Source of the DNA: Bdellovibrio sp. SKB1291214
GTDB lineage: Bacteria > Bdellovibrionota > Bdellovibrionia > Bdellovibrionales > Bdellovibrionaceae
Assembly: GCF_002209355.2 (NCBI RefSeq)
Contig: NZ_CP106855.1
Span: forward strand, 310,001 to 374,000
Length of the DNA stretch: 64,000 nucleotides
Direction of reading: 5' to 3'
The notes under the pieces were generated by a model that saw only the letters and a list, made by a program, of their open reading frames with translations, ran no database searches and had not been told where the DNA came from. Made by a program: the position numbers and the translations under genes. This document shows, piece after piece, positions 38,829 to 43,059 of this stretch; position 1 is the stretch's first letter, and each line of letters opens with the position of its first letter.

Positions 38829-38849
38829 TTAAATTTCTAGGAGGAAATC

Positions 38850-40787
38850 ATGACAAAATTTTTGAGCGCTTCTGCTCTCAGCGCCACTGTATTGGCTTTG
38901 ACCATGCCTTTTGCCTCGGCGGCAGAATTATCTGAAGGCAAAGCAACGGAAACCACCAGAAAAGTGAATCAACGTTATATCCAAATGCTCGACTTCAATA
39001 ATCGGGAAGATTTTGAGTTTGCAAACAAAGGTTTCATCGCGACGCTAGATAATCCCATCGTTAAAAGCTCTAACGGCAAAATAGTCTATGATCTGAGTGC
39101 TGCTGATTTTACTAAAGATAAAAATCCACCAGACACGGCGAATCCAAGCCTTTGGAGACAATCGCAATTAACTGGCATTCACGGACTTTTTAAAGTCACT
39201 GATAAAATCTATCAGATCCGCGGCTTTGATATCTCGAACATGACCTTAATCGATTGATCCACTCATCAGTACGGAAGTGGCGGCGGCAGGCCTTAAGCTC
39301 GCTAATGAAAAATTAGGAAAACGTCCCGTCAAAGCCTTGATTTACACACACAGCCACGGTGATCACTTCGGAGGAGCCGCCGGTGTCATCACAGAGGCAG
39401 AAGCGAAAAAATCCAAATCCTCGCCCCCGAAGGGTTTATGGAAGAGGCCGTGAGTGAAAATCTTTTCGCCGGAAATGCGATGAGCCGCCGCGCTCAATAT
39501 ATGTATGGCTACGGCTTAAAAAATGGACCCACTGGAAACCTTGGCACGGGTTTAGGCCCCATCGGCTCTAATGGAACTATTGGATTGATCCCTCCCAATA
39601 AGCTGATTAGAAAAACGGGAGAAAAAATGACCATTGATGGTGTGGAAATGGTTTTTCAAATGGCACCCGGCACGGAAGCGCCGTCTGAAATGATGTTCTA
39701 TTTCCCTCAATTAAAAGCCCTCTGTTTATCAGAAGATGCCACTTCAACCATGCACAATCTTTATACATTACGGGGCGCAAAAGTTCGCAGTCCCCTTGTT
39801 TGGGCCACCGCTTTAAGTACAACCCTTGATATGTTTGGAGATAGAGCTGACGTGTCTTTTGCTTCCCATCACTGGCCACGTTGGGGAAATGCGAAAGTGA
39901 AAGAGCACATCACTAAGCAACGTGATATGTATAAATTCATCAAGATCAAACCCTCCGTTTGGCAAACAAAGGTTACAATGCTGAAGAGATTGCTGAAAAA
40001 ATCCAGCTACCAGATTCATTGGCCAAAGAATTTTATAATCGCGGCTACTATGGAACTTTAAGCCACAATATCAGAGCAACAACTCTATCTCGGATTTTAT
40101 GACGGAAATCCAGCGACTCTTCATAAACATCCGCGCACCGTGACTGCGCAGAGATATGTTGATGCCATGGGCGGAGCAAACAAGGTTATAAAACTTGGGC
40201 AAGAAGCATTTGACCGAGGCGATTATCGTTGGACGGCAGAACTGGTAAATCATGTGGTTTACGCTGATCCAAATAATACCAAAGCAAAATCACTCCAAGC
40301 GGCAGCCCTAGAACAGATGGGATTCCAAAGTGAGAGCGGTCCTTGGCGCGATGTCTATTTGAGCGGTGCTGCAGAACTTCGCGGTCAGACTAAAAAATCA
40401 GGAGTTCCCCTGGTTGATCCCGTTACTTTACCACTGGCGTTGTTGATTGAATACACGGGTCTGCGATTAGATCCTGCAAAAGCGAATGGGATAACGAAGC
40501 GTATTGGGCTCAACACAACAGACACGAAAGAAAAATATACTTTGGTTTTAAACAACTCCGTTCTTAGCCTTCAAAAGCCCACTCAGGGAGAAAAGCTAGA
40601 TGCCACTTATTCCCTCAAATCCCGCGAAATTGGCGAGATTTTGGGAACTGGAAAAAATGCAGGAAGTTTTAAAGGCTTGGGAGAAATCGCGGGAATGCTT
40701 GATCATTTTGATCCAGCATTTAGTTTAGTCACTCCGGTTGAAGAAACGAAGGACCGTGATGACCGCATGGCGAGTGCCGAAGACTAA
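38850..40787 (+). pseudogene. SdsA/YjcS-type alkylsulfatase, disrupted by several frameshifts
   Basis: The pieces together rebuild a secreted MBL-fold alkylsulfatase of about 645 residues, near the family length. Piece 1 (38850-39257) has a signal peptide and the N-terminal part up to GFDISNMTLI. After a small deletion another frame continues with DPLISTEVAAAG and the metal motif THSHGDHFGG. A shift near 39410 leads into GFMEEAVSEN and FASHHWPRWGN (39438-39935). A further shift gives YNAEEIAEKIQLPDSLA and FYNRGYYGTL. Another near 40075 gives LGFYDGNPATLH and the intact dimerisation and C-terminal sterol-carrier-like domains to 40787. At least four separate lesions exclude sequencing-noise at a single site. 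The ribosome site, signal peptide and terminator remain, so decay looks recent. Confidence 0.92.
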
Positions 40788-40795
40788 TCAACCAG

Positions 40796-40826
40796 AAAAG
40801 GACGGGAGATACCCGTCCTTTTTTTA
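40796..40826. terminator. Bidirectional rho-independent terminator
   Basis: The stem GGACGGG (40800-40806) pairs with CCCGTCC (40812-40818) around AGATA, with A-rich 5' and T-rich 3' flanks. It sits between the sulfatase pseudogene and the convergent TonB receptor gene. Confidence 0.93.
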
Positions 40827-42941
40827 TTATATCTCCGCTTGAAGACTTAAAAGAAATGTTCTGTCAGCGCCCGGATACAGATAGACATGACCGTACTGAG
40901 TTGGAGATTCTCTCCAATATTTTTTATCTAAGACATTCTCGACTAAAAGCTCTGTCTTAAGTGGAATCGAATTCCATTTCGTTTTATAACCAGCACCCGC
41001 ATCCCAACAAACCCAACCTGGAATGATCATCGAATTGTCTGCCAGCACGGCCCGCTCCCCCTCATAGCTTGCGCGAGCCTTCAGAGAAAGTGCACTCGCC
41101 CATGGAGTTAAATATTCTGCACCGATACGCAAAGTGCTGTTTGGAATATTTATGGCTCTTTTGCCATTGAGACCTGGAGTTTGCATACTGCCTTCGCGGC
41201 GTGTTTCAAGAAGCATCCCCGCTATATTCCAGTTCCAACGTTGAATGGTGTGACTCAGTTCTGCCTCTACACCACGATGGATATCGCTACCATCCACGCT
41301 GTAGAGCGGTGCTTGATCCGTCACCACGGGACGACGAATCTCAAACAGTGCTAAACTCCAAGCGGTTCCCCGTCCACCACGGAAACCCACTTCATATTGA
41401 TCTGATTTGACGTCCGATAAAAACTGGCCGGGATTGCTGTATGTATTCCGATTCGGAGTGACAAATGATTCCGCGCCTTCAGCATAGCTGACATAAGCCA
41501 TCCAACTTTCAAACTGATAAGACAAGGCCGCCCACGGGAGCACGAAACTTTGATAATATTCTGTTGCACGACTCCCATCTGTGCGCACACTGCTGCGGCC
41601 GATGCCATTCCAACTAAGACCAAACCACGCTGTTGCTTGGTACCACTTTATCGCATCGGAGGTAAATATCTGCAGATTGTCGGCATCACGATCTGTGCTC
41701 TCATCATTTAAGGTGGTATTGCTTGGAACAGTGGCCGTGCCGTCGATCTTACCCTCTCCCACATAGTTATAAGCTTGCTTTTGATAGCGTTCGCGGCTTT
41801 TCCAGCCCATAACACCCACGTTCCAACTATGATTCACGAATCCAGTTTGAAACTGCCCATCCAAAGAAGCTCGTGCCGCCACAGTATCACGCTTTTCGTT
41901 TTCACTGCGATAATCATAAAAATCAAATGTGCCATCTGAACAATAACGATCGTAATTCCCATCCTTGGTACACCCAAATGGATAAGCCAAATGATCATTA
42001 TTCTCCAAGGACTGCAGGCCCAGTGTGAAGGAGCTGTTGAGTTTTTCACTGAGGGGCTGGCTGTAACGCAAAGTCGTCGTTGCCGCCGTAAAATTCACCG
42101 GCTGCGACCAAGTTTGATTGTTCAAATTCAGATTTGGATTTTGCACTTCAGGTAACTTCGATCCTAACAAACTCATTCCCGGTTGACTGGGTTGAGAGCG
42201 TTTTGAAAGCTCAATTTCCCACTGCAAAAGCCCCTGAGTTTCGAGACGCACATCGAAAGCTGCTGCGATCATCGAGCGATGTCCGAAAGCATCTTGCAGA
42301 TGAGGTGAAAGATATTCGTAACCTGCATTCACGCGATAACTGACATGATCATTTTCATTAAAAGTTCCTCCAGCATCAGCTGTGACCCTAGCTCCCCCAG
42401 AGTCATTGATGTCCATGCGGGTGTTTAATAACGATTTTCCTGTGGGTCTTTTCACCAGATAATGAACCACGCCCCCTGGAGCACTCACCCCGGATTGAAT
42501 TCCTGATAGGCCCTTTAAGACCTGAATACTGTCTTTATTTTCAAGGGGTATCGAAGTTTCTGCATTGATCGGAAGGCCTTCCCGGCGAAAACTATTTCGA
42601 TTATCTAAAGTATAACCACGAATGGAAATCATATCCCAGTAGCCCGTGGCATTGTAACTATCCGTCAGAGAAGAGTCGAGTGTCGTTAAATCTGCCAGAC
42701 GTAAAATCTGATTTTTCTCCAAGGTCTTATGGTCGTAAGAACTGGATGAAACGGGAACGTCCTCCAGCGCAAAACTTTCGAATCCCAGGACCGATGCATT
42801 CGAGTCGGATTCTGCCTGAACCTGAATTGCCTCTAAAGATGTTGTTGAATCTGGTGTTTGTGCACCAGCGATCGAGCCCGTAAGGACTAAAAATAAGACG
42901 ACTCCAGCAATGCCAGAGTGCGAACAGTGGACTGTTTTCAT
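40827..42941 (-). CDS. TonB-dependent outer membrane receptor under TPP riboswitch control (likely thiamin or precursor uptake)
   Basis: A 704-residue outer-membrane active transporter. The signal peptide ends near IAGAQ. A plug domain covers about residues 50-185, with the segments ISIRGYTLDN, DSIQVLKGLSGI and GGVVHYLVKRPT; a 22-strand-type barrel follows and the last residues end LQAEI. By sequence it resembles the ferric-siderophore branch (FhuA/FpvA-like). Its leader, however, is a TPP riboswitch whose 3' end contains the ribosome site (AAGGAA, five bases before ATG). That points to thiamin, a phosphate ester or a pyrimidine/thiazole precursor as the cargo. No TonB-box is obvious by eye. 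No inner-membrane thiamin transporter gene is adjacent. Confidence 0.9.
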   Translation of the reverse strand: MKTVHCSHSGIAGVVLFLVLTGSIAGAQTPDSTTSLEAIQVQAESDSNASVLGFESFALEDVPVSSSSYDHKTLEKNQILRLADLTTLDSSLTDSYNATGYWDMISIRGYTLDNRNSFRREGLPINAETSIPLENKDSIQVLKGLSGIQSGVSAPGGVVHYLVKRPTGKSLLNTRMDINDSGGARVTADAGGTFNENDHVSYRVNAGYEYLSPHLQDAFGHRSMIAAAFDVRLETQGLLQWEIELSKRSQPSQPGMSLLGSKLPEVQNPNLNLNNQTWSQPVNFTAATTTLRYSQPLSEKLNSSFTLGLQSLENNDHLAYPFGCTKDGNYDRYCSDGTFDFYDYRSENEKRDTVAARASLDGQFQTGFVNHSWNVGVMGWKSRERYQKQAYNYVGEGKIDGTATVPSNTTLNDESTDRDADNLQIFTSDAIKWYQATAWFGLSWNGIGRSSVRTDGSRATEYYQSFVLPWAALSYQFESWMAYVSYAEGAESFVTPNRNTYSNPGQFLSDVKSDQYEVGFRGGRGTAWSLALFEIRRPVVTDQAPLYSVDGSDIHRGVEAELSHTIQRWNWNIAGMLLETRREGSMQTPGLNGKRAINIPNSTLRIGAEYLTPWASALSLKARASYEGERAVLADNSMIIPGWVCWDAGAGYKTKWNSIPLKTELLVENVLDKKYWRESPTQYGHVYLYPGADRTFLLSLQAEI

Positions 42942-42945
42942 TGCG

Positions 42946-43020
42946 TTTCCTTCGCGAGCATTATCTCGTCAGGTTCAAAGGGTATATCTCAGCCGCCACC
43001 CCAGTGACAGCACCCCTAGC
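42946..43020 (-). promoter_or_regulatory. TPP (thi-box) riboswitch
   Basis: Read on the minus strand, the conserved aptamer pieces occur in order and at normal spacing: GGGGTGC, a P3-type hairpin (CTGTCAC with GTGGCGG), CTGAGA (42987-42992), ACCCTTTGAACCTGA (42969-42983), TAATGC (42958-42963), and GCGAAGGAAAC. CTGAGA contacts the pyrimidine and the ACCCTTTGAACCTGA arm is nearly invariant in this class. The last piece includes the SD AAGGAA (42947-42952) of the TonB receptor gene, so ligand binding should block translation start directly. Confidence 0.96.
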
Positions 43021-43030
43021 TATGCTGAGC

Positions 43031-43059
43031 TTTATGTCGGAAACCTAAAGCTCGGTCAA
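43031..43059 (-). promoter_or_regulatory. Sigma-70-type promoter for the riboswitch-TonB receptor transcript
   Basis: On the minus strand, TTGACC (43059-43054) and CATAAA (43036-43031) are separated by exactly 17 bases. Transcription would begin just before the aptamer. The promoter lies directly behind the stop of the PLP-enzyme gene, giving the receptor its own transcript. Confidence 0.7.

Follow-up and report, generated by a model that had tools for sequence, protein, structure and literature searches.

Elements of the receptor locus

On the minus strand of the window, by which we mean the whole 64,000-nt stretch of Bdellovibrio DNA analysed here, a gene for a TonB-dependent receptor lies behind a thiamin pyrophosphate (TPP) riboswitch and a predicted promoter, and is followed by a probable terminator (Table 1). 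For the riboswitch, our Rfam scan of the window returned a match to the full length of model RF00059 (model positions 1-105), scoring 57.2 bits (gathering score 54.3 bits; E value 1.4e-8). With the threshold relaxed to E<=0.5, the window still has no further Rfam match, and the whole genome (G000; one contig, 3.68 Mb) holds no second TPP match over the cut-off; a candidate second match of only 21.6 bits was set aside as chance. Here, the aptamer blocks CTAGGGGTG, CTGAGA, CCCTTTGAACCTGA, and GCGaAGGaA are all present and nearly invariant across 19 members of the genus, and the sequence has the P2-P5 architecture and conserved core of a TPP riboswitch; the window's copy lacks one P4 pair. The first-pass annotation had recognised thi-box blocks on this strand and had pointed to the Rfam TPP model as a check, and both the blocks and the match over the cut-off bear it out.

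Table 1. Features of the receptor locus, in window positions.
Feature	Position	Strand	Basis
Predicted sigma-70-type promoter: TTGACC (43059-43054), 17 bp, CATAAA (43036-43031)	43031..43059	-	Sequence
TPP riboswitch (RF00059)	42929..43027	-	57.2 bits; kept in 19 genus genomes
P1 5' strand, CAUAGC	43019..43024	-	Pairs with 42944-42939, one A-A mismatch; minimum-free-energy fold
Ribosome-binding site, AAGGAA	42947..42952	-	AGG paired in P4 with CCU 42973-42971; sequence, fold, consensus structure
P1 3' strand, GCAAUG, including start codon AUG (42941-42939)	42939..42944	-	Fold
TonB-dependent receptor of 704 aa, which probably carries thiamin or thiamin phosphates across the outer membrane	40827..42941	-	TIGR01783, Plug, orthologues, barrel fold
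Hairpin AAAGGACGGGtatctCCCGTCCTTTT and U-run behind the receptor, probable terminator	40796..40821	-	Seen in sequence

The promoter, which had likewise been read earlier as TTGACC-17-CATAAA, is conserved. Of the 19 genus loci, 18 have TTGAC at this place (5.8% of the 62-mers from these loci contain TTGAC), and an ATAA-type -10 element at a spacing of 17-19 bp is found in 15 of the 19 genomes. An inverted repeat around the promoter (GAGCTTTA...TAAAGCTC) was considered as an operator and then dropped, as it is missing from most relatives.

By sequence, the receptor would be called a siderophore transporter, as the first-pass annotation anticipated, and indeed it matches TIGR01783 (‘TonB-dependent siderophore receptor’) with 229.2 bits (cut-off 223.5), together with the Pfam Plug domain PF07715 (43.2 bits). 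Its structure model has a mean pLDDT of 61.7 with a poorly modelled plug, and was therefore used for the barrel fold only; this fold resembles those of FemA, BauA, and FhuA, the nearest solved structures. No siderophore genes were found among the adjacent genes examined. Adjoining the receptor is an alkyl-sulfatase-like gene (window 38841-40787, plus strand), which in three other genomes (G011, G012, and G022) is a single ORF of 675-717 aa, likewise beside the receptor. In the window, stops and frame changes split this gene into ORFs of 135, 207, and 215 aa, which suggests a pseudogene or else an error of sequencing.

The window leader folds into the TPP architecture, with P1 being weak and shifted and P4 short of one pair (G-A). 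In this predicted fold, the aptamer overlaps both the Shine-Dalgarno (SD) sequence and the start codon, as the AAGGAA motif, 5 nt upstream of the ATG, falls inside the 3' block, just where the first-pass annotation had placed the SD of the receptor gene. With the SD held in P4 and the AUG in P1, the fold suggests that TPP binding should hide both and shut off translation. The switch is given as a prediction because P1 is weak, P4 lacks a pair, and the folding energy of the leader is ordinary (z 0.45). Identical CAUAGC and GCAAUG strands of P1 are found in one other genome of the genus (G010).

Nine genus genomes have this short form of the leader, in which the ATG stands close behind the 3' block, and in the remaining ten the leader is longer and has a separate Shine-Dalgarno sequence. 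In three of the latter (G011, G016, and G020), a stretch immediately upstream of the ribosome-binding site has 7-9 nt of complementarity to the 3' strand of the aptamer (CAGGGAA or similar), at shuffle frequencies of 0.007, 0.001, and 0 of 2000, respectively. Pairing between this stretch and the ribosome-binding site itself is also seen, over 9 bp in G011 (shuffle 0.002) and 6 bp in G016 (shuffle 0.09), which gives the leaders of these two genomes the predicted layout of a mutually exclusive translational switch. By the same simple complementarity test, the remaining long leaders have no significant aptamer-leader complementarity.

Conservation of the riboswitch-receptor pair

Including the window's own, TPP riboswitches were found in 19 Bdellovibrio genomes (18 of the 23 others searched), with scores ranging from 56.0 to 69.4 bits, of which the 57.2 bits in the window lies at the low end. 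While the P3 hairpin is variable, the genus consensus structure revealed that its pairing survives two-sided changes at seven positions. The next gene on the same strand after the riboswitch is an orthologous receptor in all 19 of these genomes, and the orthologues from the other 18 are 37-64% identical to the receptor in the window. Overall, the receptor is present in 20 of the 24 genus genomes and in none of the 36 genomes from other genera of the order. One Bdellovibrio metagenome-assembled genome (locus L145) carries the receptor without a riboswitch, directly behind an HflX-like gene; this receptor and that of G003, a genome with no riboswitch match, are probably one and the same sequence.

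Elsewhere in the order, TPP riboswitches stand before other genes. In G048, which belongs to another family, the riboswitch precedes a different TonB-dependent receptor of 678 aa (L041:5590-7623, minus strand) that has no blastp match to the receptor in the window, and the arrangement may have arisen by an independent recruitment of this kind of receptor. Two further genomes of other families have the riboswitch upstream of a symporter-like membrane protein of 484 aa (L031 in G045) and of a probably secreted protein of 139 aa (L050 in G043).

Outside the genus, the closest receptors that we found come from the Burkholderiales, with 39-45% identity, and at all 39 of the loci examined there the receptor gene either has a TPP riboswitch before it or directly follows thiE. 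To be specific, a TPP riboswitch just upstream of the receptor scores over the cut-off at 27 loci and below it at five, one more locus has a riboswitch core visible by eye with an enlarged hairpin, and at the other six the receptor is directly behind thiE. ThiE was confirmed by Pfam at one locus, and tblastn placed ThiE just upstream of the receptor at 28 Variovorax loci, including the six just mentioned. Three Burkholderiales riboswitches (L148, L207, and L222) have the core present but apparent enlarged stems or insertions, on account of which they fall below the Rfam cut-off or are missed by the model. In a quick receptor tree, the Bdellovibrio and Burkholderiales sequences are on separate sides (SH-aLRT 100), and thus there is no sign of recent transfer; a recent exchange of the receptor was rejected for this reason, and an older transfer in either direction is possible.

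Thiamin genes and the cargo of the receptor

The thiamin synthesis genes searched for are largely missing from the genome. ThiC is absent from all genus genomes searched, thiamin pyrophosphokinase (TPK) and PnuC/PnuT are absent from the window's genome, and ThiK has no match over the cut-off. ThiE and ThiG gave only partial matches, both on one 333-aa ORF, where ThiG exceeds the Pfam cut-off by 1.7 bits; as these weak matches coincide, the ORF was not counted as a thiamin gene, and the ThiG match is probably spurious. The first-pass annotation had proposed looking for a loss of thiC and thiG, and we find the former missing and the latter represented by just this doubtful match. A metabolic model of strain HD100 also has an incomplete thiamin pathway (PMC7529429).

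What the genome does have is ThiL (241 bits), TPP-dependent enzymes, and a three-gene ABC transporter of the ThiB/P/Q type (genome position 1143798-1146924), which is unlinked to the receptor. The binding protein of this transporter scores 196.6 bits with TIGR01254 (cut-off 93.4), its best match among solved structures is the thiamin-binding protein 2qry, and a permease and an ATPase are encoded alongside; the permease score is weak, and the assignment was settled by the binding-protein model. By eye, the operon resembles one in G040, from another family of the order, that is itself under a TPP riboswitch. Across the genus, receptor and ThiL occur together in 19 genomes, the receptor alone in one, ThiL alone in one (88% complete), and neither in three, an association with a Fisher p of 0.008 when the relatedness of the genomes is ignored. 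Three genomes (G004, G008, and G017) are without receptor, riboswitch, and ThiL over the cut-off, and a ThiP-like permease is still seen in them; in G015, the receptor and riboswitch are present with no ThiL over the cut-off. Since synthesis genes are missing and ThiL, the ThiB-type importer, and the TPP enzymes are kept, import of thiamin or a thiamin phosphate is probably obligatory, which fits the earlier suggestion of an organism that takes this vitamin from outside.

Taken with the pairing in 19 of 19 genus genomes, the Burkholderiales context, and the ThiB-type operon under a TPP riboswitch in another family, this gene content supports the thiamin-type cargo that the first-pass annotation had put forward. 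Alternatively, siderophores (or haem, or a metal) could be the true cargo of the receptor, with the riboswitch as an accidental neighbour or with iron uptake linked to thiamin status. Its TIGR01783 score and the siderophores carried by its structural relatives FemA, BauA, and FhuA speak for this. However, TIGR01783 describes a broad subfamily, predicted thiamin receptors have previously been grouped with siderophore receptors (PMC3400609; PMC2771747), and an accidental neighbour sits poorly with a pairing that is kept throughout those 19 genomes and with a TPP riboswitch or thiE at every Burkholderiales locus, so that we regard a siderophore receptor as highly improbable. Some transporters under TPP riboswitches carry thiamin precursors (thiV and thiXYZ: PMC10881298; PMC545781), and the cargo here could likewise be a precursor (HMP or thiazole) in place of thiamin or thiamin phosphates. 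The genome, though, is without ThiC and has no credible ThiE for joining precursors, and it possesses ThiL and the ThiB-type importer, which makes such a cargo extremely doubtful.

A different objection concerns the aptamer, which in the window strain might be a relic that no longer switches, leaving the receptor always made. Its score towards the low end of the genus range, the P4 mismatch, the shifted P1, and the L145 receptor that does without a riboswitch are all in keeping with this. Against it stand the invariance of the aptamer core and a P1 that, in a form shared with G010, continues to pair through the start codon; loss of switching is therefore very unlikely in our judgement.

We consider it very likely, then, that the riboswitch senses TPP and represses a receptor for thiamin or thiamin phosphate, with the ABC transporter and ThiL completing the route. 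Under this proposal, the aptamer, with which the receptor mRNA begins at its 5' end, would sense intracellular TPP. When TPP is plentiful, the aptamer would close, the SD (P4) and start codon (P1) would be hidden, and no receptor would be made. When TPP is scarce, the receptor would be made and would import thiamin, or thiamin phosphates released from prey, across the outer membrane. Passage through the inner membrane would fall to the unlinked ThiB/ThiP/ThiQ-type ABC transporter, and TPP would be completed by ThiL from the monophosphate. ThiL acts on thiamin monophosphate (TMP), and no kinase for free thiamin (TPK or ThiK) scored over the cut-off, hence a phosphate ester is a plausible cargo. 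With ThiL present, and with both ThiE and a recognisable thiamin pyrophosphokinase missing, the receptor may even take up TPP or TMP directly from digested prey, a reading we hold tentatively and to which we give slightly less than even chances.

Relation to known systems and significance

TonB-dependent receptors under TPP riboswitches have been described elsewhere. In Bacteroides thetaiotaomicron, genetic evidence shows that the TPP-riboswitch-linked TonB-dependent thiamin transporter OMthi (BT2390) matters for thiamin acquisition: when it is deleted, a mutant unable to make thiamin needs more of the vitamin (PMC5613172). OMthi and the Bdellovibrio receptor are alike in arrangement, in that a gene for a TonB-dependent receptor stands behind a TPP riboswitch. 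In contrast, Bacteroides also makes thiamin and has PnuT and a pyrophosphokinase inside, whereas Bdellovibrio has neither of the two, and the likely partners of its receptor are the ThiB-type ABC transporter and ThiL. Rodionov et al. (2002; cited in PMC2211319) predicted outer-membrane receptors behind TPP riboswitches (omr), and metagenomes have since yielded riboswitches in this position once more (PMC2211319; PMC10881298). The omr and omr1 genes are of the same type as the Bdellovibrio receptor and share its riboswitch class, and the cargo of most omr is likewise only predicted. Thiamin has also been listed among the predicted substrates of TonB transporters (PMC3400609; PMC2771747). A Variovorax genome has a TonB-dependent receptor within a TPP-riboswitch thiamin operon (PMC10409787); the likeness here is again one of arrangement, though Variovorax makes thiamin and has its receptor after thi genes, while in Bdellovibrio the receptor is alone behind the switch. 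Our literature search found no paper describing a TPP-riboswitch-controlled TonB receptor in Bdellovibrio. The Bdellovibrio case is a new and well-supported addition to such receptors, which have already been published for other bacteria.

Annotation would label the receptor a siderophore transporter; the proposal assigns it a cargo that is specific and can be tested, and for the Burkholderiales relatives the same cargo can be tested in easily grown bacteria. Moreover, the leader offers a natural, compact, and apparently translational switch for Bdellovibrio. For the predator itself, the proposal explains how a bacterium apparently unable to make vitamin B1 could get it. Were the receptor to take up TPP or TMP directly from digested prey, it would give a periplasmic predator the outer-membrane part of a route for gathering finished cofactor, under feedback from the predator's own TPP level.
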